From positions 248,001 to 312,000 of the forward strand of contig JACQZU010000014.1 in the NCBI GenBank assembly GCA_016213735.1: a DNA stretch of 64,000 nucleotides. Reading direction: 5' to 3'. The position numbers and the translations under genes were made by a program. Of the stretch, positions 50,733 through 63,112 are shown piece after piece (the stretch's first letter is position 1; each line of letters starts with the position of its first letter). The notes beneath the pieces are model-generated. The model worked only from the letters and a program-made list of their open reading frames with translations. It was not told the origin of the DNA and did no database searches. Source of the stretch: Acidobacteriota bacterium (GTDB lineage: Bacteria; Acidobacteriota; Holophagae; Holophagales; Holophagaceae).

Positions 50733-50767
50733 TTGCCCGGACAATTCGAAATATCTAGAATCTAATT
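50733..50767 (+). promoter_or_regulatory. arsR promoter/operator (site A)
   Basis: -35 TTGCCC (50733-50738), 17-bp spacer, -10 TAGAAT (50756-50761). The spacer and -10 contain TTCGAAATATCTAGAAT (50745-50761), an imperfect dyad (14 of 18 positions symmetrical when one flanking A is added). The same motif occurs in the promoters at 53.35 and 60.99 kb. Its position between and over the -35/-10 boxes is the normal place for a repressor site. Confidence 0.7.
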
Positions 50768-50779
50768 CCGGAGGGGAAG

Positions 50780-51157
50780 ATGCCGACCCGGGTTGAGCGG
50801 AATGCCGAACGCTTCCAGGCCCTCGGGAATCCCATCCGCCTCGCGATTCTCCGCCTCCTCGTCCAGGGGAAGGAGGCCGGGACCTCCGTGGGGGACATCC
50901 AGAAGAAGGTGGGGATTCCCGGTTCGACCCTCAGCCACCACCTCTCCCGGCTGGCCAAGACGGGGCTGGCCAGGGTGGAGCGGGACGGCCATTCCCTGCT
51001 CTACCGGGCGGACTTTCAGAGGCTCCATCGGCTCACGGACTACCTGTGGGAGGACTGCTGCAAGGGAGGCCGGATGATGGACGGGAGCCTTTCGTCCGGC
51101 ACGGAGGCGGCCCCGGGCGCCTGCCCGACCGGCGCGTGCTCCTCCCCCGAGGATTGA
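50780..51157 (+). CDS. arsR: ArsR/SmtB-family metalloregulator
   Basis: A 125-residue winged-helix repressor. ERFQALGNPIRLAILRLLVQG and GIPGSTLSHHLSRLAKTGLARVERDG are the ArsR core and recognition helix. Metal-binding residues are in the C-terminal helix: Cys93-Cys94 in DYLWEDCCKGG, plus Cys115 and Cys120 in the tail. No Cys is present in the recognition-helix region, so the site is unlike E. coli ArsR and like the C-terminal vicinal-Cys type. Arsenite or another thiophile would release DNA. It lies just downstream of site A, so it probably regulates itself and, by shared sites, the two promoters further on. Confidence 0.93.
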   Translation: MPTRVERNAERFQALGNPIRLAILRLLVQGKEAGTSVGDIQKKVGIPGSTLSHHLSRLAKTGLARVERDGHSLLYRADFQRLHRLTDYLWEDCCKGGRMMDGSLSSGTEAAPGACPTGACSSPED

Positions 51158-51308
51158 CCCCCCCCTGAACCGTCCGCTGCCCGGGAGGCGCCCTTGGCGG
51201 AGCCTCCGGGTCCGATCGGGGGCCAGGGCTGGTCCAGAGGTCCCCGGACAGGGAAAAAAGAAGGGGGCGGGGGTCATTCCCCCGGCCCCGCGGGAACCCG
51301 GAGGAGGG

Positions 51309-51728
51309 ATGCACCAGGCTTCGATCGAGAACAGAGGGGATTCCAGGCTGCTGGCCACCACCCGGCGCGGGGGCTTCCTCATGGATGCCCAGGGCCTGGG
51401 AACCGATCCCGTGGACGCCCTGCTGGCCAGCCTCTGCGGGTGCCTTGGGCGCAGCCTCCGGGCCTTCCTCCACCAGGAACGACGGGGCGGGGAGGCCTTC
51501 ACCATATCTGCGCGGGCCGGCCTCACCCCGGACGGCACCTTGGTGGACACCATCGAAGTCCTTGTGTCTCCGGAGGGGTCCTGGTGGAACGAAGCCCAGC
51601 GGGAGCGGATGCTCCAATCCCTCAGGGGCTCCAAGGTATTCCGCATCCTCAGCGTGGTGCCCGGCATCCGCCTGGCCTTGGCGGAACCGTCGGTCCGCAC
51701 GGGAACCGCCTCCAGGGTCCTCGCATGA
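51309..51728 (+). CDS. OsmC-family protein
   Basis: A 139-residue OsmC/Ohr-fold protein (GTDPVDALLASLCGCLGRSLRAFL carries the first reactive Cys region). The second Cys of the Ohr pair is not obvious, which favours the OsmC/YhfA-like branch. These proteins reduce peroxides or bind small thiol compounds. Follows arsR after 151 nt and is coupled by ATGA to the GNAT gene. Confidence 0.82.
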   Translation: MHQASIENRGDSRLLATTRRGGFLMDAQGLGTDPVDALLASLCGCLGRSLRAFLHQERRGGEAFTISARAGLTPDGTLVDTIEVLVSPEGSWWNEAQRERMLQSLRGSKVFRILSVVPGIRLALAEPSVRTGTASRVLA

Positions 51729-52546
51729 GCGGGCTCCTCCGGATCCGCCCGCTGGTGGAATCCGACCTCCCCCTTGTGGGGCATTTCCCGCCCCCGGAGT
51801 GGAATTTCTCCTTCCAGGACCTTCTGCGGAGGCACCTCGGGCGTTCCTACTTCATCCCGCTGGTGGGGGAATGCGGGGGCGAGGTCGCCGCGGTGGGACA
51901 TGGGCTCAGCCACGGGGACACGGGCTGGCTGGGGAACATCATCGTGAGCGAAGGCCATCGGCGGAAAGGCTTCGGCCTTGCCCTCACGTCGGCCCTGATG
52001 GAGCGCCTTCGCCACGCCGGCTGCCGGCGTCAGGTCCTGATCGCCACCTCCATGGGAGAGCCGCTCTATGCCCGGCTGGGTTTCAGGGTCACCGGGCGCT
52101 ACACCTTCTTCAAAGCCTGGCGCATGGACGGGCCCGGGGCGGTGCCCGGCGTCCGCCCCCTCTGTGCCGGCGACGAAGCCGAGCTGCTCAGGCTGGACCG
52201 CCAGGCCACGGGGGAGGACAGGGCGGCACTGCTTTCGGGGTTCCTGTTGGGGGGCTTCGCCCACCGCCTCCACCCGAAGGGGGACCTCGGCGGGTTCTAC
52301 CTTCCCGGGCTCGGGGCGGGGCTGGTGGTGGCGCGCGATCGGGAGGCCGGGGAGGCCCTCCTGCGGTTCAAACACATGGACCAGGAAGCCGGGAGCGTGA
52401 TCCCCGAGGACAACAGGGAGGCCAGGGATTTCCTCCTCGGCCTGGGCTGCCTGGAGACGGGCACCGCTCCCCGCATGGAGCTGGGGACGGAGCTCGCCTG
52501 GCGGCCCGGGATGGTCTGGAGCCGGGGGGCGGGCTGGTGCGGGTGA
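51725..52546 (+). CDS. GNAT-family acetyltransferase with a second domain
   Basis: A 273-residue protein. Residues 1-130 are a GNAT with NIIVSEGHRRKGFGLALTSALMERLR (acetyl-CoA loop) and PLYARLGFRVTGRY. Residues 140-273 resemble the YitH/HsdR-like C-terminal GNAT-related domain (DREAGEALLRFKHMDQEAGSVIP). Substrate unknown. Stop overlaps the next gene by GTGA. Confidence 0.8.
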   Translation: MSGLLRIRPLVESDLPLVGHFPPPEWNFSFQDLLRRHLGRSYFIPLVGECGGEVAAVGHGLSHGDTGWLGNIIVSEGHRRKGFGLALTSALMERLRHAGCRRQVLIATSMGEPLYARLGFRVTGRYTFFKAWRMDGPGAVPGVRPLCAGDEAELLRLDRQATGEDRAALLSGFLLGGFAHRLHPKGDLGGFYLPGLGAGLVVARDREAGEALLRFKHMDQEAGSVIPEDNREARDFLLGLGCLETGTAPRMELGTELAWRPGMVWSRGAGWCG

Positions 52547-53286
52547 CGGAGGCCGGGAGGGGGGTTCCCGATTCCAGGAACCCGGATGGTCGGCTCCTGG
52601 CGGTGAACCTCCTGCAAACCCGGCGCTTCGCCGAAATGTTCTCCGAGTCCATCGAGGGGGCGGCCCGGGCGGCCTCTCTCCCCTGGAGCGTGGTGGGGCC
52701 CGGGGAGATTCCCAGACCGGGGGAATGGGACCGCTTCACCCACCTGCTCCTCTCGGGGTCGGAGGCCTCCGCCCTCCTGCCGCAGCCCTGGGAGCAGGAA
52801 CTCCGCACCCTGGTGGCTGCCTGGGCCGCCTCGGGGAAGCCCGGTCTGGGCATCTGCTATGGACACCAGTTCCTCGCCAAGGTCCTCCTCGGACCCCAGT
52901 CCCTCCGGCGCTCCTCCACTCCGGAATTCGGTTTCGTGCGGACCCGGTTCGCCCCGCACCCCCTCTTCGAAGGGCTTGGGGATGCCTTCTTCTTCAACGC
53001 ACACATGGAAGAGGTCCACCGCCTGCCGGAGCATGGCAGGGTGCTCGCCGCCACCGACCGCTGTCCGATCCAGGCCGTGGCGTACGGCCCCGGTCCCCTG
53101 GTGGGGGTCCAGTTCCATCCGGAATTCGACCGGCTCCAGGGCGAGGAGATCCTCCGGAGCCTGGGCCGGAGTCCCCGTCCCACCCCGGCCCCGGAGGGCG
53201 GGGCCGGCCGGGTGGTGCTCGGGCGCTTTCTTCGCCTGCGCCCCGGCCCGGGGCGGGGCCAGCCCGAGCCACCCGGCGTCCGGTAG
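52543..53286 (+). CDS. Class I glutamine amidotransferase-like protein
   Basis: A 247-residue GATase1 with the nucleophile elbow GLGICYGHQFLA and the His-Glu dyad in GVQFHPEFDRL. It resembles stand-alone GMP-synthase-like amidotransferases (YfeJ, gamma-glutamyl hydrolase-like). GTG start overlapping the GNAT stop. The last 50 residues are Pro/Gly/Arg-rich. It ends 25 nt before the site B promoter region, so read-through from arsR into the oxidoreductase operon is possible. Confidence 0.8.
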   Translation: MTEAGRGVPDSRNPDGRLLAVNLLQTRRFAEMFSESIEGAARAASLPWSVVGPGEIPRPGEWDRFTHLLLSGSEASALLPQPWEQELRTLVAAWAASGKPGLGICYGHQFLAKVLLGPQSLRRSSTPEFGFVRTRFAPHPLFEGLGDAFFFNAHMEEVHRLPEHGRVLAATDRCPIQAVAYGPGPLVGVQFHPEFDRLQGEEILRSLGRSPRPTPAPEGGAGRVVLGRFLRLRPGPGRGQPEPPGVR

Positions 53287-53310
53287 GATCTCCCAGGCCC
53301 GGCCTGGAAA

Positions 53311-53370
53311 ACAAAATTCCAAAAATTTCGAAATTTTTGTTGCTTCTTATTTCGAAAATTTTAGATTGTT
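53311..53370 (+). promoter_or_regulatory. Promoter/operator of the oxidoreductase operon (site B)
   Basis: A 60-bp AT-rich module. It contains a perfect palindrome AAAAATTTCGAAATTTTT (53321-53338) and TTCGAAAATTTTAGATT (53351-53367), the motif shared with sites A and C. TTGCTT (53340-53345) and TAGATT (53362-53367) with a 16-bp spacer make a plausible promoter, placing the start about 20 nt before the ferredoxin start codon. Confidence 0.68.
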
Positions 53371-53388
53371 AGGGTCGGGGGTGGGGAC

Positions 53389-54198
53389 GTGGAAATGACG
53401 GGCGGCGGACGGGAGGAGGGATCGGCTGGAATTCCAGGGACGCCCCAGGGGGCGGCCTCCCGGAACGCCGTCCCGCCCCGGCCCGCCCGCCGACACTTCA
53501 CCCTTGCGGCGGGGGCCACCCTGGCCCTGGCCCTGGTGGCCCGGAGGAGGGTCGGGGGCCGCGCGGAGGGCGTCTCCCTGCCGCCGCGCAGGGGTCGCAA
53601 GGCCATGGCAATCGACCTGGATCGCTGCATGGGGTGCCAGGCCTGCGCCGTGGCCTGCAAGGCGGAACACGGGGTGCGTCTCGGGGGATTCCGTTCCTGG
53701 GTCTCGGAGGAAGAGAACGGCCGTTTTCCGGCCGTGACCCGGGACTTCCTGCCCCGGCTGTGCAACCACTGCGGGAACGCCCCCTGCCTGAAGGTCTGCC
53801 CCACGGGGGCCACCCTCCGCCGGGCCGACGGGATCGTGGTCGTGGATTCCGCGCGCTGCATCGGGTGCCGGCACTGCATGGCCGCCTGCCCCTACAACGC
53901 GCGCTACTTCAATTCGCAGCTGGACCCCGGGCCGGAACAGGCGCGCTTCACCGCCCGGACCCATGGCACGGTGGACAAGTGCGACTTCTGCGCCCGCCGG
54001 ACCGACGCCGGCCGGCAGCCCGCCTGCGTGGAGACCTGTCCGGCCGCGGCCCGGGTGTTCGGAGACGCGGACGACCCGGACTCCCCGGTCTCCCGCCTCC
54101 GGGCGACCGGCCGTGGGGCCGGACTGCTGGAGGAGCTGGGCACCCAGCCTTCGGTGTTCTACCTCGGGCGACGGGGGGCAGGCCCCCCCAGGACCTGA
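53389..54198 (+). CDS. Four-cluster ferredoxin subunit of a molybdopterin oxidoreductase complex
   Basis: A 269-residue iron-sulfur subunit (PsrB/DmsB/TtrB-like). Sixteen cysteines in four groups: CMGCQACAVAC, CNHCGNAPCLKVC, CIGCRHCMAAC, and CDFC followed by CVETC. All four groups would hold [4Fe-4S] clusters. The N-terminus contains ARRHFTLAAGATLALALVA, a degenerate Tat-like or anchor segment. GTG 53389 or ATG 53395 may start it. It carries electrons between NrfD and the catalytic subunit. Confidence 0.92.
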   Translation: MEMTGGGREEGSAGIPGTPQGAASRNAVPPRPARRHFTLAAGATLALALVARRRVGGRAEGVSLPPRRGRKAMAIDLDRCMGCQACAVACKAEHGVRLGGFRSWVSEEENGRFPAVTRDFLPRLCNHCGNAPCLKVCPTGATLRRADGIVVVDSARCIGCRHCMAACPYNARYFNSQLDPGPEQARFTARTHGTVDKCDFCARRTDAGRQPACVETCPAAARVFGDADDPDSPVSRLRATGRGAGLLEELGTQPSVFYLGRRGAGPPRT

Positions 54199-54203
54199 GC
54201 CCC

Positions 54204-55745
54204 GTGGAAAGCGAGGCTTCCGTGGACCGCACGATCGAATCCTCCATTCTCCGGCCCCTCCGCGAGCCCGGCGGGACCCGGCCCTGGAGGGGACGGATCC
54301 TGGCCCTTGGCACGGCGATTTGGATGTGGTCCTGCGCCCGGATCCTCTCGGAAGGGCACGGGCTCCTGGGGACCGGCAGCTACGGGGTGTCCTGGGGCCT
54401 CACCGTGGCCAACACGATCCACCTCATCGGGATCAGCCACGTGGGCATCGCGGTGTCCGCCGTGGTGCGGGTCCTGGGGCTCGAGCGCTTCCGGAACGCC
54501 GCGCGGATCGCGGAGCTGCTGACCCTGGTCTCCCTCCTCCTGGCGGTGGCGAACATCACCCTGGACGTGGGTCGTCCGGACCGCTTCCTGGTGAACACCC
54601 TGGTCCACGGACGCTGGCACGCTCCCATGGTCTGGTCCGCCACGGTGATCTCCCTCTACCTGGTTTCCAGCGGGGTCTACCTGTACCTGTCCATGCGCCG
54701 GGACCTCTGGGTCCTCTCGAGGACCGAGCTGCCCTTCCGGGCCCTCTACGCCGCCCTTTCCCTGGGCTACAGGGACACCGAGGAATCCCGGAACCGCCAC
54801 GACCAGGCCCTGTCCTGGCTGGCCCTGGCCCTCATTCCCGTGATGGTTTCGGTTCATTCGGTCTACGGGCTCTTCTTCGGACTGCTGAGCGCCCGGCCGG
54901 GGTGGCACAACCCCCTCCAGGCCCCTTACTTCGTTCTGGGGGCCGTGGTGTCGGGCTTTTCGGCCCTCGTCGTCCTTCTGGCCCTGCTGCGGCGGGAATT
55001 CGCCTGGCGGGAGCTCCTGGAGGAGCGCCTGTTCCGGGTGTTCGCGGTCTTCCTGGCCTTCGTGATCTTCCTCTACCTCTACTTCACCGGAAGCGAGCAC
55101 CTCACCGCCCAGTACGCCGGGCCACCGGCGGAACGCGCCCTGTCCGGGCTGGTCCTGGGCGGGTCCTACGCCTGGGCCTTCTGGGGGACGATGACCGCGG
55201 GACTGCTCGCCCTGATTTGGCTGCTCCGCCTGGCCCGGCGCCCGGGGCCCGTGAAGGTCGGGGCCATCGCGGCGGCCGCGGCCCTGGTGAACGGGGCCAT
55301 GTTCGCCAAGCGGGTCCTGCTGCTCCTTCCACCCCAGCAGCATCCAGCGCTCCCGACCCCCCTCCCGCCCGGCCTCTATGTCCCCACCGCGGTGGAACTG
55401 GCGGCCACCTTCGGTACCTACCTTGCCGGGGCCCTGGCCTTCCTCGGGATTCTTCGTTTCCTCCCGGCCATCGAGCTGCCCCTCGCGGAACCGGAGGACG
55501 CCCTCGCCTGGACGGGGACGAGGGACCCCTGGCGTCGCGCGGTGGTTCCGCTCACCATCGCCGCGGGCCTGGTGCTGGTGGTCTGGGGCGTGCGGGGCCG
55601 GGAGGCGGATTTTGCGCCGCTGAAATGGATCTCCGGGCTGCTCCTCCTCGCCCTGGTGCCCCTGGAATGGTGCCTCCTGGGGGGGCAGGGAAAGCCCGGG
55701 GCTGTTCCCGACAGTTCTTTCGTCCGCCAGGAGGCCGAAGGATGA
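54204..55745 (+). CDS. NrfD-family quinone-interacting membrane subunit
   Basis: About 513 residues, larger than PsrC-type NrfD (about 320) and closer to the HybB/ActC/DsrP-like group. Roughly nine to ten helices. The second to fourth helices carry GVSWGLTVANTIHLIGISHVGIAVSAVVR and LTLDVGRPDRFLVNTLVHGRW-type segments seen in the family, and a conserved Asp/Arg pair (DVGRPDR). GTG 54204 is the likely start (5 nt after the ferredoxin stop), with GTG 54222 possible. It couples quinol oxidation or reduction to the periplasmic enzyme. Stop overlaps the next ATG (ATGA). Confidence 0.88.
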   Translation: MESEASVDRTIESSILRPLREPGGTRPWRGRILALGTAIWMWSCARILSEGHGLLGTGSYGVSWGLTVANTIHLIGISHVGIAVSAVVRVLGLERFRNAARIAELLTLVSLLLAVANITLDVGRPDRFLVNTLVHGRWHAPMVWSATVISLYLVSSGVYLYLSMRRDLWVLSRTELPFRALYAALSLGYRDTEESRNRHDQALSWLALALIPVMVSVHSVYGLFFGLLSARPGWHNPLQAPYFVLGAVVSGFSALVVLLALLRREFAWRELLEERLFRVFAVFLAFVIFLYLYFTGSEHLTAQYAGPPAERALSGLVLGGSYAWAFWGTMTAGLLALIWLLRLARRPGPVKVGAIAAAAALVNGAMFAKRVLLLLPPQQHPALPTPLPPGLYVPTAVELAATFGTYLAGALAFLGILRFLPAIELPLAEPEDALAWTGTRDPWRRAVVPLTIAAGLVLVVWGVRGREADFAPLKWISGLLLLALVPLEWCLLGGQGKPGAVPDSSFVRQEAEG

Positions 55746-58081
55746 CTCCATCCAACCGCAGGGAATTCTTCGCCCGGAGCGCCGCCGCCGCCGGGAGCCT
55801 CCTCGGGGGGGCCGCGCTTCTCCTGCCGGACAGCTTCCGGAAGGGTCCGGCCGGTCCGGACGAAGCGGTCCCCGCCCCGGGCCGGCCCCGCACGACGGTG
55901 CCCTCCGCCTGCTGGCAGTGCGTCACCCGCTGCCCGATCCTGGGCACGGTGGAGGGGGAACGCCTCGTGAAGATCGACGGCAACCCCGCCTCCCAGGCCA
56001 CCCGGGGCCGGATCTGCGCCAAGGGCCAAGCCGGGATCAACCAGGTGGAGGATCCCGATCGTGTGCTCCACCCCCTCCTGCGCACCGGTGCCCGGGGGGA
56101 AGGTCGCTGGAAGCGCATCACCTGGGACGAGGCCCTGGACCTCCTGGTGGAGGGGGGGGAGGTGGCCGGCCGGAAGGTGCGGGGCCTGCGTTCGCTCCGC
56201 GACTCGGGCGTGCCGGAGAAGTTCCTCTTCCACTATGGCCGCTGCGTGGGGAGCGACTGGACGATCCTGATGGACCACTTCCTGCCTGCCTACGGCACGG
56301 GATCGGTGGGGGACCACGACGCCATCTGCATGGCCGCGGGAAGCGTGGCCGGCGCGCTCACCGGGGGCGGGTCACCCTTCATGGATCTCTCGAAAGCCGC
56401 CATGGTGCTGAATTTCGGAAGCAGCCCCCTGGAGGCCACCACCGACCACATCCCCACCGCCCAGCGATTCGTCGAGGCCCTCGCCCGGGGGGTCCGCGTG
56501 GTGAGCTTCGATCCCAGGCTCTCCAACACCGCGGCGAAATCCACGGAGTGGGTGCCCCTCAAGCCCGCCACCGACCTCGCCGTGCTGTTGGCCATGAGCC
56601 ACGCGATCCTGGAGGCCGGATTGGAAGACGGGGCCTTCATCTCGGGCCACACCAACGCCACGGTCCCGGAGCTCCGCGCCCACCTGGCGCCCTTCACCCC
56701 CGCCTGGGCGGAAAACCTCAGCGGCGTTCCCGAAGGGCGGATCCGCAGCCTGGCCCTGGATTACGCCCGGAGCAAGCCCGGCGTGTGCCTCAGCGCACGG
56801 GGCGCCTTCATGCACCACAACGGGGTGCAGACCCAGCGCGCCATCCACCTGCTGCAGGCGCTCACCGGCAACGTGGACCCCGCCGGGCGGCCGGCGCGCC
56901 GCCCGGCCTGGCGCTTCCCCTTCCCGACCCCCGCTCCCGCCACCCGGAAACTCCCCGTCTTCGAAGGGGAACCCGGGGCCTACTCCCACCCCTTCTCCGG
57001 GGTTTCGCACCAGATCCTCAGGAGGATCGCCAAGGGCCCCGACCGGCCCGAGATCTACATGCTGTACTGTCACAACCCTGTCTATTCGAACGGGGACTGC
57101 GACGCCAACGCCCGGGTGTTGGCCGACCCGGGCCTGGTGCCCTTTCTCGTCTCGGTGGACGTGGGCCTGGGGGAGTCCACCCTGCTCGCCGACCTGGTGC
57201 TTCCGGACGCCACCTACCTGGAGCGCTGGACCTGCGACGGCAAGGTCACGCCCGAGGGCCTGGCCGAGTACCAGCTCCGCCAGCCGATCGTGGCGCCCCG
57301 GGGACAGGCGCGGCACTTCCCCGACGTGGCCTGCGAGGTGGCCCGGCGACTGGGGGTGGACCTGGGCTTCTCCTCCGCCGAGGCCTTCATCCGGGCGGCC
57401 TGCGAAGCCACGCCCGAGGTCCGCGCCGCCGGCGGATTCGAAGCCATGAAAGCCCTGGGCGTGTGGGTGGATCCCCGTCCCCCCGAGCCCGGAAATCCGC
57501 GGGGACCCATGCAACTCCGCTCCGAGGCGCTCGAAAAGGCGGGCTTTTCCGCCCTTCCGGCCTGGATGCCGGTGCCGGAGCATGGCGCCATGACCGAGGA
57601 GGACCTGGTTCTGGTGACCTTCAAGGTCCCCGTCCAGACCCAGTCCCGCTCCCAGAACTGCAAGTGGCTCACCGAGCTCTACCACGAGAATCGCGCCTGG
57701 ATCCACCCCGAGGCCGCGGCCCGTCGGGGCCTGCGGGACGGTGAGGAGGTCCTCGTCCGCTCCGCCATCGGCCAGATCCGGATCCCCCTCAAGGTCACCG
57801 AGGGCATCCATCCCCGGGCCCTGGCCATTTCGCACCACTGCGGCCACTGGTCCCGGAGCGACTACGCCGCAGGCCAGCCGGCACCCCACGGCCGGCCGGA
57901 GGCCGACAGCCCCCTCCGGTGGTGGAGGGGGCACGGGGCCCACGTGAACCGGATCATTCCCACCCTGGGGGACCCCATCGCAGGGGCCATGCGTTGGAAC
58001 GACACCGTCGTCCAGGTGCGGAAGCTGCCGGACGGGGTCCGCGGGGAGTCCGACCTCCCGAAGATCGGCTCCAGCCGGTGA
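55742..58081 (+). CDS. Tat-exported molybdopterin oxidoreductase, catalytic subunit (Psr/Phs/Ttr/Arr-like)
   Basis: A 779-residue DMSO-reductase-family catalytic subunit. A twin-arginine signal (SNRREFFARSAAAAGSLLGGA) gives export. The [4Fe-4S] site is C57-x2-C60-x3-C64-x27-C92, and Cys196 in GDHDAICMAAG is the probable Mo ligand. The C-terminal cofactor-binding domain is complete (QSRSQNCKWLTELYHENRAWI to the end). The Cys spacing and the Cys ligand fit polysulfide/thiosulfate/tetrathionate and arsenate reductases. I cannot choose among them, and it could run in the oxidative direction. The linked ferredoxin and NrfD complete the quinone-linked complex. Confidence 0.9.
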   Translation: MTPSNRREFFARSAAAAGSLLGGAALLLPDSFRKGPAGPDEAVPAPGRPRTTVPSACWQCVTRCPILGTVEGERLVKIDGNPASQATRGRICAKGQAGINQVEDPDRVLHPLLRTGARGEGRWKRITWDEALDLLVEGGEVAGRKVRGLRSLRDSGVPEKFLFHYGRCVGSDWTILMDHFLPAYGTGSVGDHDAICMAAGSVAGALTGGGSPFMDLSKAAMVLNFGSSPLEATTDHIPTAQRFVEALARGVRVVSFDPRLSNTAAKSTEWVPLKPATDLAVLLAMSHAILEAGLEDGAFISGHTNATVPELRAHLAPFTPAWAENLSGVPEGRIRSLALDYARSKPGVCLSARGAFMHHNGVQTQRAIHLLQALTGNVDPAGRPARRPAWRFPFPTPAPATRKLPVFEGEPGAYSHPFSGVSHQILRRIAKGPDRPEIYMLYCHNPVYSNGDCDANARVLADPGLVPFLVSVDVGLGESTLLADLVLPDATYLERWTCDGKVTPEGLAEYQLRQPIVAPRGQARHFPDVACEVARRLGVDLGFSSAEAFIRAACEATPEVRAAGGFEAMKALGVWVDPRPPEPGNPRGPMQLRSEALEKAGFSALPAWMPVPEHGAMTEEDLVLVTFKVPVQTQSRSQNCKWLTELYHENRAWIHPEAAARRGLRDGEEVLVRSAIGQIRIPLKVTEGIHPRALAISHHCGHWSRSDYAAGQPAPHGRPEADSPLRWWRGHGAHVNRIIPTLGDPIAGAMRWNDTVVQVRKLPDGVRGESDLPKIGSSR

Positions 58082-59604
58082 AGCCCCTGGCCCTGGCGCC
58101 TGAAGGATCGCCCCTGGAGGGGGCTCCGGAACTTTCCCTGGATCCCGAGGATTGGACCTCCTTCCGGGAGCTGGTCCGGCGGGCGGCGGACGAAATGATG
58201 GACTACCTGGAAACGGTGCGCGAACGCCCCGCCTGGCAGCGGGTTCCCTCCCAGGTGCAGGCGCGCTTCGAGGCCCCCCCGCCGGTGGAGGGAATGGAGG
58301 CCGCCCGGGTCTACGAGGAATTCCGGGAGAGCATCCTGCCCTTTCCAGAAGGAAACATCCATCCCCGCTTCTGGGGGTGGGTGATCGGGACCGGCACGCC
58401 GGTAGGGGTGCTGGCCGAAATGCTGGCCGCCACCATGAACACCCCTGTCCCGGGTTTCGAGCAGTCGGCCTACTACGTCGAACGCCAGGTCATGGATTGG
58501 CTCCGACAACTGTTCCTCATGCCTCCGGAGGCCAGCGGAATCCTGGTGAGCGGCGGCTCCGCCGCCAACCTGATCGGGCTGGCAGTGGCCAGGAACCAGA
58601 AGGCCGGGATCGACGTGCGGACCGAAGGCCTGGCGGCGGCCGGGGTCGCTCCCATGAGGGTGTACGCTTCGGCGGAAACCCACTCCTCAGTGCAGAAGGC
58701 GGTGGAACTGCTGGGCCTGGGAAGCCGGTCCCTGGTCCTTCTGCCCGTGGGCGAGGACTTCCGCCTGGACCTGGGGGCCCTCCGGGAGGCGGTGAGGGAG
58801 GACCGGCGGCGAGGCTTCCGGCCCTTCTGCGTCGTGGGCAACGCGGGGACCACCAACACGGGGGCCGTGGACGACCTGGCCATCCTGGCGGACTTCTGCG
58901 CCGCGGAGGACCTGTGGTTCCACGTGGACGGGGCGTTCGGCGCCACCGCGGCCCTCTCCCCCCGCCTGCGGCCCCTGCTCCAGGGGATGGAGCGCGCGGA
59001 TTCCCTGGCCTTCGACCTGCACAAGTGGGCGGCGATGCCCTACGAAGTTGGAGGGGTGTTCGTCCGGGATGCGGGAGCCCACGCCCGGGCCTTCTCCCTC
59101 CACGCCGAATACCTGAATTCGCTGGAGGCTGGAGCCTCGGGCAACGGCACCCCCTTCGCGGACCTTGGCCTCCAGCTCTCCCGGGGTTTCCGGGCCCTGA
59201 AGGTCTGGATGTCCGTCAAGACCTTCGGCCTCGCCAGAATGGCCGCCATCCTGGAGCAGAACGTGGACCAGGCCCGCCACCTCGCGGCCCTGGTCCAGGA
59301 ACATCCCCGGCTCCAGCTCCTGGCGCCCGCCGGCCTCAACGTCGTGGCCTTCCGCTACGCCGCGCCGGGCCTCCGGGAGGCGGCCCTGGATGCCCTCAAC
59401 GCCCGACTGTTGCTGGACCTTCAGGAAAGCGGTTTCGCCGTGCCCTCCGGGACCACGCTCCGGGGACGCTTCGCCCTCCGGGTGGCGTCCGTGAACCATC
59501 GCAGCCGGCGGGAAGACTTCGCGGCCCTGGTGCGGGAGGTGGCGCGGCGGGGCGATGCCCTGGCCGCCGGACCCGAACCCGGCCGGGACAGGCCGGGGGG
59601 ATGA
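58078..59604 (+). CDS. PLP-dependent group II decarboxylase (AADC/glutamate-cysteine sulfinate type)
   Basis: A 508-residue fold-type I decarboxylase. PLP Lys is in AFDLHKWAAMPYEVGG, the PLP-contacting Asp/His in LWFHVDGAFGATAAL, and the N-terminal HPRFWGWVIGTGTPVGVLAEML opens the active site. It is translationally coupled to the molybdoenzyme by GTGA. It removes CO2 from an amino acid. Aromatic amino acids, glutamate or cysteine sulfinate are family possibilities. Such a decarboxylase in a respiratory operon is unusual. Confidence 0.87.
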   Translation: MKPLALAPEGSPLEGAPELSLDPEDWTSFRELVRRAADEMMDYLETVRERPAWQRVPSQVQARFEAPPPVEGMEAARVYEEFRESILPFPEGNIHPRFWGWVIGTGTPVGVLAEMLAATMNTPVPGFEQSAYYVERQVMDWLRQLFLMPPEASGILVSGGSAANLIGLAVARNQKAGIDVRTEGLAAAGVAPMRVYASAETHSSVQKAVELLGLGSRSLVLLPVGEDFRLDLGALREAVREDRRRGFRPFCVVGNAGTTNTGAVDDLAILADFCAAEDLWFHVDGAFGATAALSPRLRPLLQGMERADSLAFDLHKWAAMPYEVGGVFVRDAGAHARAFSLHAEYLNSLEAGASGNGTPFADLGLQLSRGFRALKVWMSVKTFGLARMAAILEQNVDQARHLAALVQEHPRLQLLAPAGLNVVAFRYAAPGLREAALDALNARLLLDLQESGFAVPSGTTLRGRFALRVASVNHRSRREDFAALVREVARRGDALAAGPEPGRDRPGG

Positions 59605-59617
59605 ATCCCCCCACCCT

Positions 59618-60328
59618 CTATTCCTCGATGGCGCCCCCGATGGCGCGGAGGTGCTGGCGGAAGGTGTACCCGGGCTCGACGGCCCGCCGTTCCAGGTAGG
59701 CCCCGAAGGCGAGCTGTTCGCGGAGGGAGTGCCCCTCGAGGACCCGCTGGGCCAGGCCGCGTTCCCGGAGCAGGATCTCCTGGGCGACCGGGAGGAGTTC
59801 CCCGAGGCTCTCCCGCGGGACGAAGAGCACCCCGTCCTCGTCGCAGACGGCGAAGTCCTCCCTCGTCACCGTGAAGGCCCCGAAGTGTGCGGCCCGCAAG
59901 GCGTCGGGGGGGCTGGGATCCGCCCGCAGGGGGCCCGTGGGGACGCTTCCGTAGCTGAAGACGGGGAATCTCATCCGCCGAAGCTCCGCGGTGTCCCTGT
60001 GGCAGCCCCAGACCAGGATGCCCGCCAGGCCCGCGGCCCTTGCCTCCAGGGCGCTGAGGTCTCCCACCGCCCCTTCGTCCGTGCGCCCGCCGTTGTCCAC
60101 CACCAGAAGGTCGCCGGGAAGGGCGGCCTCCATCGCCTCGAGGAAGATGTCCACGCTGCCGCTGTGGCGAACCGGCAGCACACGGCCCGCCAGAGGCAGC
60201 CCCCGGATCACGCCCCGGATTCCCAGGGGCGCCGCCCGGAGCGGAAGGCCCAGGCGGACGCAGGCATCCGCCAGGACTGCGGTGGGAATGAGGGCGGGCT
60301 CGGAGGTGGGCAGGGCGGGGCTGGGCAT
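59618..60328 (-). CDS. RraA-like / HMG-CHA aldolase family protein
   Basis: A 236-residue RraA-fold protein. Family features: LPLAGRVLPVRHSGSVDIFLEAMEAALPGDLLVVDNGGRTDEGAVGDLSALEARAAGLAGILVWGCHRDTAEL, where the DNGG and the following Arg/Asp bind divalent metal and substrate. Some members are RNase E regulators, while others are oxaloacetate decarboxylases or HMG aldolases. Start ATG 60328. Convergent with the decarboxylase gene. Confidence 0.82.
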   Translation of the reverse strand: MPSPALPTSEPALIPTAVLADACVRLGLPLRAAPLGIRGVIRGLPLAGRVLPVRHSGSVDIFLEAMEAALPGDLLVVDNGGRTDEGAVGDLSALEARAAGLAGILVWGCHRDTAELRRMRFPVFSYGSVPTGPLRADPSPPDALRAAHFGAFTVTREDFAVCDEDGVLFVPRESLGELLPVAQEILLRERGLAQRVLEGHSLREQLAFGAYLERRAVEPGYTFRQHLRAIGGAIEE

Positions 60329-60336
60329 GGAAGACC

Positions 60337-60744
60337 TCAGAATCGGAGGGCGCCGTGGAAAAAAAGGTCCACGAGGAGTTGGCTTGTGGGGGTGTGGATG
60401 GAGACCAGTCCTGGATGGACCTCGCCTCCCCTCCGGATGCGGATGCGGTAGGGGTCGGTCCAGACCTGCCGCCGCCTCTTCGGGTCGAGCCTCCAGGAGA
60501 TGCGGGTGAGGCCAGGGGCCTGGTCCACCTTCAACTGGTCGGGCGTCTCGCCCTCCACCTCGACCTCCCAGGAGGCCTCCTCCGGCGGGTAGGACAGGCT
60601 CAGCTTCACCCGAAGCTCCGGACCTTCCCGAACACAGTCGCTGAGGACCAGCGGGGCGCGGCGGGGCGTGTGGGTGGTCACCAGGGGCGTGCAGGCGGCG
60701 AGGAGCGCCGCGAGGAGGAAAAGCGGGACCAGGGAAGATCTCAA
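60337..60744 (-). CDS. Small lipoprotein
   Basis: A 135-residue lipoprotein: MRSSLVPLFLLAALLAAC gives a signal peptide with a good lipobox (LAAC). The rest is a beta-rich domain without recognised family. The RraA-like gene follows 8 nt downstream on the same strand. It shares the 60745-61048 gap with the divergent permease. Confidence 0.78.
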   Translation of the reverse strand: MRSSLVPLFLLAALLAACTPLVTTHTPRRAPLVLSDCVREGPELRVKLSLSYPPEEASWEVEVEGETPDQLKVDQAPGLTRISWRLDPKRRRQVWTDPYRIRIRRGGEVHPGLVSIHTPTSQLLVDLFFHGALRF

Positions 60745-60944
60745 GGGCTGTTCTCCTGGAGGATTCCGGGGGGCCGCCCCCGGGCCATTCTCCTCCAGGC
60801 TCCCCCGGGCCTTCCGGGGTCCCCCCGGGTGGCAGCCCTTCGGGTGGCGAACGGTACCGGTGGGAGCCCCGACGGGACGCGGCCGGGTCCCGCACCCCCG
60901 GACCCGGCGTCCCGGACCGGGAGGGAAAAGGGTCGGGTCGAAAA

Positions 60945-61003
60945 GAAAATTCCAAAATTTTCGAAATTTCGATGGAATTTTATTTCGAAAAATTTAGAAT
61001 TAA
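60945..61003 (+). promoter_or_regulatory. Promoter/operator of the permease gene (site C)
   Basis: An AT-rich module closely similar to site B: AAAATTCCAAAATTTTCGAAATTTCG first, then TTATTTCGAAAAATTTAGAATTAAAT. The core TTCGAAAAATTTAGAAT lies at 60984-61000, TAGAAT being a -10-like hexamer. The matching -35 is less clear. About 45 nt upstream of the permease start codon. The remaining gap back to the lipoprotein gene (60745-60940) is GC-rich without recognised features. Confidence 0.68.
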
Positions 61004-61048
61004 ATCTTGAGGGCCACGCCCCGATCCCTGGAAAGAAAGGAAGCGTCC

Positions 61049-62122
61049 ATGTCCGAATCCCGAGTCTCGTGCTGTGGAAGCCGGCCCGCCGTCCAGGCGG
61101 CTCCGGGCGTTTGGAAGGCCTGGGGCTGGGTGCTGCCCGCCCTGGTCCTGGGGGTCCTGGCCTTTGCCGCCCTTGAACCGCTGTCCCGCTGGCTGCTGGG
61201 GCGGGTGCTGGGGCTGGACCTGGGCACGCGCCTGGGATCGGCGGCGGCCTTCTTCCTTTCGGAAGGTCCCCGGGTGCTGCTCCTTCTCGCGGGAGTGACC
61301 TTCCTGGTGGGTTTTCTTCAGAGCTTCCTCGATCCCGTCCGGACCCGGGACATCCTCGCCCGGCGCGCCGGGGCCTGGGGGAACCTGCTGGCCAGCCTGT
61401 TCGGGATCGTCACTCCCTTCTGTTCCTGCTCGGCGGTCCCGCTGTTCATCGGCTTCGTGCGGGTGGGGGTCCCCCTGGGGGTGACCTTCAGCTACCTGGT
61501 GGCCGCCCCCATGATCAACGAGGTGGCCCTGGTCCTGCTTCTGGCCATGTTCGGATGGAAGATTGCCGCCCTCTACGCCGCCACGGGGATCTCGGTGGCG
61601 TTCCTGTCCGGGTGGATCCTGGGGAAGTTCAGGCTGGAGGCCATGCTCGAGCCCTGGGTCTGGAAGGCGGTGGAGTCTCCCGAGAAGGGGTCCCTTCCGA
61701 GGCCCCGGGGAGAACAGCGACTGGCGCTGGCCTGGCGCAGCGCCCGGGAGATCGTGGGAAAGGTGTGGCCCTTCGTGCTGCTGGGCATCGGGGTGGGCGC
61801 CTTCATCCACGGCTACATTCCGGAGGGGGTCCTGGCGAGGTTCATGGGCAAGTCCTCCTGGTGGACCGTGCCCCTGGCCGTGCTCATCGGGGTTCCCCTC
61901 TACGCGAGCACGGCGGTGGTGCTGCCCATCGTCCAGACCCTTCTCGCCAAGGGCGCGGCCCTGGGGACCGTGCTGGCCTTCATGATGGCGGTGACCGCCC
62001 TCTCGGTTCCCGAGGTGCTCATCCTCCGGAGGGTGCTCAAGGCCAGGCTCATCGCCCTGTTCCTCGGGATCGTCACCCTGGGGATCCTGACGGTGGGATA
62101 CCTCTTCAACCTGCTTCTCTGA
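61049..62122 (+). CDS. ArsP-type (DUF318) permease
   Basis: A 357-residue membrane protein with about 8-10 helices, belonging to the ArsP_1/DUF318 family. The signature TPFCSCSAVPLFIGFVRVG has Cys125 and Cys127, and Cys8-Cys9 lie in the N-terminus. MINEVALVL and ASTAVVLPIVQTLL are further conserved loops. Family members export trivalent organoarsenicals or, in related branches, other thiophilic substrates. Placed behind operator site C, so likely under the same ArsR as the oxidoreductase operon. Confidence 0.9.
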   Translation: MSESRVSCCGSRPAVQAAPGVWKAWGWVLPALVLGVLAFAALEPLSRWLLGRVLGLDLGTRLGSAAAFFLSEGPRVLLLLAGVTFLVGFLQSFLDPVRTRDILARRAGAWGNLLASLFGIVTPFCSCSAVPLFIGFVRVGVPLGVTFSYLVAAPMINEVALVLLLAMFGWKIAALYAATGISVAFLSGWILGKFRLEAMLEPWVWKAVESPEKGSLPRPRGEQRLALAWRSAREIVGKVWPFVLLGIGVGAFIHGYIPEGVLARFMGKSSWWTVPLAVLIGVPLYASTAVVLPIVQTLLAKGAALGTVLAFMMAVTALSVPEVLILRRVLKARLIALFLGIVTLGILTVGYLFNLLL

Positions 62123-62251: not shown

Positions 62252-63112
62252 ATGGGATGCAACGCCAGGGCGGACGCCATCGAGTTCCCGGGACCGGTGG
62301 TGTCCTGCGGGTGGCTTCGGGAACGGCTGGGTCACCCGGGGCTGGTCCTGCTGGAGGCCCGCCTCCAGGCCGTGGCCCCCGGCCAGCCGCAGGGCGGGCC
62401 CCTGGGGATCCCCGGCGCCAGGGTCTTCGACCTGGAATGGATCCGGGACCGTTCTTCCAAGCTCCCGCACACCATGCCCTCCCCACGGGAGTTCGAGGTG
62501 GAACTCCAGGGCCTGGGGGTCTGCTCGGAAAGCCGGGTGGTCGTCTACGACCCTGGAGGGGTCTACGCCAGCCCCAGGGTGCGGTGGATGATCCGGGCCA
62601 TGGGGCATGACCGTGTGGCGGTGCTCGACGGGGGTCTGGACGCCTGGAAGGCCGGGGGTCACCCGGTGGAGGCGAACCCGGGAGGAGGGTGGGACCAGGG
62701 GGATTTCACGGCCCACCCGAGGGCCGGGTGGTTCACGGACGCCCAAGGGGTGATGGATGCGCTGGAGGGCGGACACGCCTGTGTGGTGGACGCGCGCTCC
62801 GAGGGCCGCTTCAGGGGCTTGGATCCCGAACCGCGCCCCGGACTCCGGGGCGGCCACATGCCCGGGGCGGTGAACCTGCCCTACGAGGAGGTGCTCCGGG
62901 GAGGCCACCTCCGCCCCTTGGCCGAATTGAGGGACCTCCTCGGGCGCCGGGTCGGTGACCGCTCCCGGCTGGTGTTCACCTGCGGGTCGGGGGTGACGGC
63001 CTGCCTTCCGGCCCTGGCTGCGGAACTGGCGGGCTATGCGGAACTGTCGGTTTACGACGGATCCTGGAGCGAGTGGGGGTCGCGGGAGGACTGGCCCCTG
63101 GCCCGGGGCTGA
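62252..63112 (+). CDS. sseA: Thiosulfate/3-mercaptopyruvate sulfurtransferase (two rhodanese domains)
   Basis: A 286-residue two-domain rhodanese. The inactive N-terminal domain is about 1-150 (VVVYDPGGVYASPRVRWMIRA). The C-terminal domain has the catalytic loop CGSGVTA (Cys244-Ala250), which matches mercaptopyruvate sulfurtransferases (CG[S/T]GVT) better than thiosulfate rhodanese (CRKGVT). It makes a protein persulfide and passes sulfur on. It follows the permease after 129 nt and may be in the same transcript. The proposed ArsR link brings sulfur handling into the regulon. Confidence 0.9.
   Translation: MGCNARADAIEFPGPVVSCGWLRERLGHPGLVLLEARLQAVAPGQPQGGPLGIPGARVFDLEWIRDRSSKLPHTMPSPREFEVELQGLGVCSESRVVVYDPGGVYASPRVRWMIRAMGHDRVAVLDGGLDAWKAGGHPVEANPGGGWDQGDFTAHPRAGWFTDAQGVMDALEGGHACVVDARSEGRFRGLDPEPRPGLRGGHMPGAVNLPYEEVLRGGHLRPLAELRDLLGRRVGDRSRLVFTCGSGVTACLPALAAELAGYAELSVYDGSWSEWGSREDWPLARG

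Follow-up and report, generated by a model that had tools for sequence, protein, structure and literature searches.

The window, i.e. the whole analysed stretch of 64,000 nucleotides from an Acidobacteriota bacterium of the family Holophagaceae (contig JACQZU010000014.1, positions 248,001 to 312,000), contains an arsR gene (arsR1), an operon encoding a Psr/Phs-like molybdoenzyme (the psr-like operon) and a gene for an ArsP-type permease, each preceded by a promoter carrying the same sequence motif, TTCGAAA-N4-TAGAWT. The motif is analysed here as a candidate operator of ArsR repressors. Promoters, operator dyads and main genes are reported below; scores of the dyads were obtained with a matrix built on sites from related genomes only, described further on.

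50733 to 50761, plus strand: arsR1 promoter, made up of a TTGCCC -35 hexamer (50733-50738), a 17-bp spacer and a TAGAAT -10 hexamer (50756-50761)
50744 to 50761, unstranded: arsR1 operator dyad ATTCGAAATATCTAGAAT, single, lying over spacer and -10 (30.7 bits)
50780 to 51157, plus strand: arsR1, encoding ArsR1, 125 amino acids, AfArsR-like (NF033788, 65.9 bits, cut-off 55; best PDB relative 6j05)
53316 to 53333, unstranded: upstream dyad of the psr-like operon, ATTCCAAAAATTTCGAAA (28.0 bits)
53340 to 53367, plus strand: promoter of the psr-like operon, TTGCTT-16-TAGATT, with the layout TTGC..-16-TAGAAT found in relatives
53350 to 53367, unstranded: promoter dyad TTTCGAAAATTTTAGATT of the psr-like operon, at a 34-bp distance from the upstream dyad (27.5 bits)
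53389 to 54198, plus strand: PsrB/DsrO-like 4Fe-4S subunit with an N-terminus resembling a twin-arginine translocation (Tat) signal (DsrO, 220 bits, cut-off 200)
54204 to 55745, plus strand: NrfD/PsrC-like membrane subunit, 513 amino acids (PF03916, 102.7 bits)
55742 to 58081, plus strand: Psr/Phs-like molybdopterin catalytic subunit with a Tat signal (PF00384, PF04879, PF01568; PhsA, 302.9 bits against 694; best PDB match 2vpw)
58078 to 59604, plus strand: pyridoxal phosphate (PLP)-dependent decarboxylase (PF00282, 205 bits)
60949 to 60966, unstranded: arsP upstream dyad ATTCCAAAATTTTCGAAA (29.1 bits)
60983 to 61000, unstranded: arsP promoter dyad TTTCGAAAAATTTAGAAT, which holds the -10 hexamer TAGAAT (34.2 bits)
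61007 to 62122, plus strand: ArsP-type permease, probable start ATG at 61050 (PF03773, 223.7 bits, cut-off 32.3)

The three copies of the 17-bp motif reported in the original prediction were found at 50745, 53351 and 60984, on the plus strand and with no mismatches; every one ends in TAGAAT or TAGATT, in agreement with the proposal that the right half is a -10 hexamer. By allowing up to two mismatches, seven sites were detected in the window, against 0.15 expected, and none of 100 shuffled sequences reached this number. Two of the four additional sites, located on the minus strand at 53316 and 60949, revealed an 18-bp palindrome, WTTCKA-N6-TMGAAW, of which the motif is one reading. The earlier description of a left half-site followed by a -10 hexamer is therefore retained as to the placement on the -10, while the true unit is the palindrome. 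In the arsR1, psr-like and arsP promoters the promoter-proximal dyad overlaps the -10 hexamer and some of the spacer. The upstream dyads had been missed in the original account: the psr-like and arsP promoters contain two dyads each, spaced 34 bp start to start (53316/53350 and 60949/60983), and that of arsR1 a single one. The arsR1 promoter is the only sigma-70-like promoter detected between 50600 and 63300; at arsP, a weak -35 hexamer, TGGAAT, is separated by 16 bp from TAGAAT. The psr-like and arsP promoters (53307-53365 and 60940-60998) can be aligned ungapped with 47 of 59 identical bases (80%). Since the identity extends beyond the dyads, this suggests that one of the two promoters was copied from the other.

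The genome of 3.59 Mb was scanned with the same patterns, as called for in the original prediction, which had held that the motif should mark only a few genes. Exact matches to the 17-bp pattern are limited to three, all within the window. The palindrome occurs in four perfect copies, at arsR1, at arsP and twice at positions 75949-76000 of contig C18. When one mismatch is allowed, these are joined by both psr dyads, the upstream dyad of arsP and nine isolated sites; none of the isolated sites that were viewed formed paired dyads. A motif located upstream of many genes was rejected, as the isolated sites are at the level of the reversed-pattern control (nine against eight). The two copies on C18 form the promoter of a fourth unit, again with a double dyad and a 34-bp spacing:

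C18, 75949 to 77320 (3950 to 5318 of the extracted locus L190): double-dyad promoter, arsR2 (a second AfArsR-like arsR) and then arsM

The gene following arsR2 encodes an arsenite methyltransferase (ArsM, 295.6 bits, cut-off 263). The motif thus marks very few promoters, and the predicted operator is found at four in the whole genome, namely those of arsR1, the psr-like operon, arsP and arsR2-arsM.

Matches to ArsR1 were detected in 59 of 77 genomes of the same family. Many of the corresponding upstream regions fit the arrangement GAATTTCGAAAAAAATCGAAATTAG..CTTGC....TATTTCGATAAATCTAGAATTA, in which two dyads about 35 bp apart lie over a TTGC..-16-TAGAAT promoter. In its strict form the double dyad is present once each in 28 of the 77 genomes, own genome included (27 of 76 relatives), while a reversed-pattern control gave 0 of 77. 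The places listed adjoin ArsR genes of the family, often within arsR-arsM-arsP, an order seen together with the double dyad at many loci presumed to be Geothrix-like. The strict match of the genome studied here is arsR2-arsM only, because the upstream dyads of the psr-like operon and of arsP carry TTCC. A matrix was then trained on arsR-promoter sites of the 27 relatives, without any sequence from the window; it ranks the five dyads of the window at the top, with 27.5 to 34.2 bits, against 13.5 for the next site and 13.5 for the best site in 40 shuffled windows. Outside the family, an alphaproteobacterial metagenome-assembled genome (MAG; locus L061) encodes an ArsR 42% identical to ArsR1, with the same STLSHH recognition helix and TTTCGAATATTCTAGAAA directly upstream. 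From the conservation in relatives, the performance of the matrix and the L061 match, the candidate operator is seen to travel with ArsRs of the ArsR1 type. A scan for the double dyad across the phylum returned, outside the family, two GC-rich matches only, neither operator-like, and in the literature no paper was found combining ArsR, TTCGAA and operator. ArsP homologues are present in 58 of the 77 genomes, most of the full-length ones being 55-73% identical and many located in arsR-arsM-arsP operons; the core of arsR, arsM and arsP is ancestral in the family.

ArsR1 is a winged-helix protein of the ArsR/SmtB type (NF033788, PF01022), with the recognition helix STLSHHL and cysteines only at positions 93, 94, 115 and 120. 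Its C93-C94 pair, present in 33 of 33 ArsRs compared, aligns with Cys95-Cys96 of AfArsR, the regulator of Acidithiobacillus ferrooxidans (6j05), which is the best structural relative and shares the C-terminal pair; it differs in the recognition-helix region (NGISFHL) and in Cys102, which is not kept in ArsR1. In AfArsR, Cys95 and Cys96 are essential for sensing trivalent arsenic, As(III), and Cys102 is not strictly required (PMC8470949). ArsR2 has recognition helix, Cys-Cys pair and operator in common with ArsR1. The genome encodes seven ArsR-family proteins above cut-off; besides ArsR1 and ArsR2, those seen belong to other types, including a CVC-type one on contig C15. The AfArsR-like Cys-Cys pair, together with the arsM and arsP partners, points to As(III), perhaps Sb(III) or methyl-As(III), as the signal; the predicted regulon is of AfArsR type and probably responds to arsenite.

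The psr-like operon combines a molybdenum catalytic subunit, a dicluster 4Fe-4S subunit and an NrfD subunit, as do PsrABC and PhsABC. The score of the catalytic subunit, 302.9 bits against 694, ruled out an assignment to PhsA, hence the designation Psr/Phs-like. The respiratory arsenate reductase ArrAB was likewise ruled out (160.4 against 1600 for ArrA, 173.5 against 450 for ArrB). Since its start overlaps the stop of the catalytic subunit gene (GTGA), the PLP decarboxylase gene is probably the last of the operon. No orthologue of the operon was found in the family, where the best match is about 35% identical and most are at 31-33%. Relatives are encoded at 73 loci in other phyla, and in a Myxococcota MAG (locus L034) the subunit genes are likewise arranged B-C-A, at 50-64% identity; the PLP decarboxylase is in none of these loci. 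Searching the 73 loci for the operator gave no convincing site in front of psr homologues: the only strong one (28.3 bits) is that of the ArsR lying 6 kb away in L061, and the others scoring above 20 bits (20.1-23.5) come from AT-richer loci. The operon was probably acquired from outside and captured by a copied arsP promoter. Among 54 long psr-homologue loci, 39 contain a putative gene for a TorD-type chaperone, judged by its appearance; here, the PLP decarboxylase gene occupies that place. A second operon for a molybdoenzyme, a 4Fe-4S and an NrfD protein is found elsewhere in the genome (L246:8112-11825, contig C8), with a catalytic subunit about 32% identical and no ArsR dyad reported; roughly half of the family's genomes have matches with similar scores.

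The best explanation of these data, held with considerable confidence, is that an AfArsR-type ArsR repressor uses the motif as its operator and governs a regulon of four units: arsR1, possibly with the OsmC, GNAT and amidotransferase genes that follow it; the psr-like operon with the PLP decarboxylase; arsP, possibly with a sulfurtransferase gene; and arsR2-arsM. According to this model, in the absence of As(III) an ArsR dimer bound to the dyad over spacer and -10 would exclude RNA polymerase, and at the psr-like operon and arsP the second dyad, 34 bp upstream, would be occupied too, tightening repression. Binding of As(III) to Cys93-Cys94 would free the promoter of the repressor. Derepression would then turn on the genes for the exporter, the methyltransferase and its accompanying repressor, as well as the molybdoenzyme operon, which was probably brought under control by a promoter resembling a copy of that of arsP. 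The cell would thus probably switch on the psr-like enzyme when arsenite is present. A further step, that the complex is itself an arsenic redox enzyme, acting e.g. on thioarsenates, methylarsenicals or antimony and linking the detoxification of arsenic with respiration via quinones, the PLP decarboxylase being part of this response, is regarded as doubtful.

Several observations weigh against the proposed regulon. The third ligand of AfArsR, Cys102, aligns with a glycine in ArsR1, whose C115 and C120 are located further on. Most arsR promoters found in the family have two dyads, against the single one at arsR1, and each psr dyad deviates from the palindrome by one mismatch. The psr-like clade has elsewhere no link to arsenic genes, leaving a role in the arsenic response unexplained. 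Finally, two paralogues share the operator, and the identity of the regulator is not fixed by sequence. This last point makes it plausible, if less favoured, that ArsR2 is the main regulator of the psr-like operon and arsP, ArsR1 being mainly self-regulating: the two proteins agree in helix and Cys-Cys pair, and the arsR2 promoter has the double dyad and 34-bp spacing of the psr-like and arsP promoters, which arsR1 lacks. ArsR1, however, adjoins the psr-like operon and groups in the tree with the double-dyad ArsRs of relatives (support 97/84), and the sequences do not separate the specificities of the two proteins. The original claim that the local ArsR controls all three units therefore stands in so far as the site is the predicted operator of this ArsR type; given the arsR2 paralogue, sole local control is not established. 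The shared regulon of arsR1, molybdoenzyme operon and permease is itself well supported computationally, by the sites, their conservation and their rarity.

The operator of the psr-like operon may also be a mere passenger of a copied arsP promoter, so that the enzyme would respond to arsenic while having no arsenic-related job. The resemblance of the two promoters in non-operator bases and the homologues with no arsenic link elsewhere are in keeping with this idea, which is nevertheless judged somewhat unlikely, since the psr promoter retains the pair of dyads, still 34 bp apart, along with a better -35 hexamer, suggesting selection. Sensing of sulfane sulfur or polysulfide by a SqrR/BigR-like protein, with the psr-like operon working as a polysulfide or thiosulfate reductase under control of its own chemistry, would fit a molybdoenzyme closest to PSR/PhsA and the sulfurtransferase gene after arsP; a precedent is E. 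coli YgaV, an ArsR-family sulfide sensor that controls anaerobic respiratory genes (PMC9774250). This is considered very improbable: ArsR1 has no cysteine at the position of YgaV Cys31, one of the two conserved in SqrR/BigR sensors (the other being near the C-terminus), scores 35.9 with the BigR model against a cut-off of 155, and has arsM and arsP as conserved partners, and the SqrR operator ATTC-N8-GAAT (PMC9774250) differs in spacing from the WTTC-N10-GAAW of the family studied here. The suggestion of one thiophile signal for all units is accordingly narrowed to As(III), polysulfide being disfavoured. As the window is 69% G+C and its promoters are AT-rich patches with common -10 letters, a chance resemblance was also considered; its likelihood is practically negligible in view of the shuffled sequences, the palindromy, the relatives-only matrix and the reversed-pattern control.

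The proposed ArsR regulon has counterparts among known systems. The Geothrix-like arsR-arsM-arsP operons feature the same ArsR type, double-dyad promoter and arsM and arsP families; here, in contrast, these genes are split into units with their own operators, and a molybdoenzyme operon is added. Control of arsenite oxidase by ArsR-family proteins is described for Thermus, where an adjacent ArsR controls aioBA (PMC8963470), and for Thiomonas, where AioF reportedly binds DNA when arsenic is present (PMC7533571). In both, as proposed here, a molybdoenzyme operon induced by arsenic is under the control of a member of the ArsR family, so that the regulatory logic is not new; what is new is the type of enzyme, which unlike AioBA is Psr/Phs-like and has FeS and NrfD subunits, and the appended decarboxylase. 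From PsrABC and PhsABC the operon differs in scoring far under the PhsA cut-off, in the long NrfD subunit, in the trailing PLP decarboxylase and in the ArsR operators. The ArsR1 stimulon of Agrobacterium 5A similarly links one arsenite repressor to targets beyond the ars operon, widely scattered (PMC7965956), but its motifs are not promoter-centred inverted repeats, whereas the operator described here lies over the -10. In the literature searched, which covered few subscription journals, no Psr/Phs-like complex controlled by an AfArsR operator was found. The family gains a concrete, testable predicted arsenic-repressor operator and regulon, and an uncharacterised Psr/Phs-side group of molybdoenzymes from many phyla is tied, in one genome, to a probable arsenic signal. 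Activity on arsenic species would make the enzyme a new arsenic redox enzyme; failing that, the case would exemplify the capture of an unrelated respiratory operon by a copied promoter.

The other genes of the units are the following:

51309 to 53286, plus strand: genes for an OsmC-like protein, a GNAT protein and a class-I glutamine amidotransferase, downstream of arsR1; the last two frames each overlap the previous one
62252 to 63112, plus strand: 3-mercaptopyruvate sulfurtransferase-like rhodanese (NF008557, 207.7 bits, cut-off 250)

The first three genes are possibly on the arsR1 transcript, the gap between arsR1 and the OsmC-like gene being about 150 bp; no counterparts were found near arsR in relatives. 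The GNAT gene encodes a double-GNAT protein with a weak match to ArsN2 (25.8 bits). The sulfurtransferase gene may possibly be co-transcribed with arsP. ArsP proteins are known to export the trivalent methylarsenic that ArsM produces (PMC11653729). The family PF03773 is broad, and the SaoE model also matches the permease of the window, below cut-off.

In the Rhodospirillales locus L061 (1799-3282), the ArsR gene with the operator precedes a gene for an ArsP_1 permease, and a psr-like operon is located 6 kb further. At L170:4030, L182:3104 and L180:10488, about 430 bp ahead of other arsP genes, there is a palindrome like TATCGGAAATTATCGAAA, related to the one described above but distinct from it. 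Since a CVC-type ArsR gene separates palindrome and arsP in both L170 and L182, these elements may represent a second class of ArsR operator. The CVC-type ArsR gene of the genome studied here (L247; contig C15, position 149909) has at its start a looser site, TTTCGGAGAATGACGAAA, which resembles this class.

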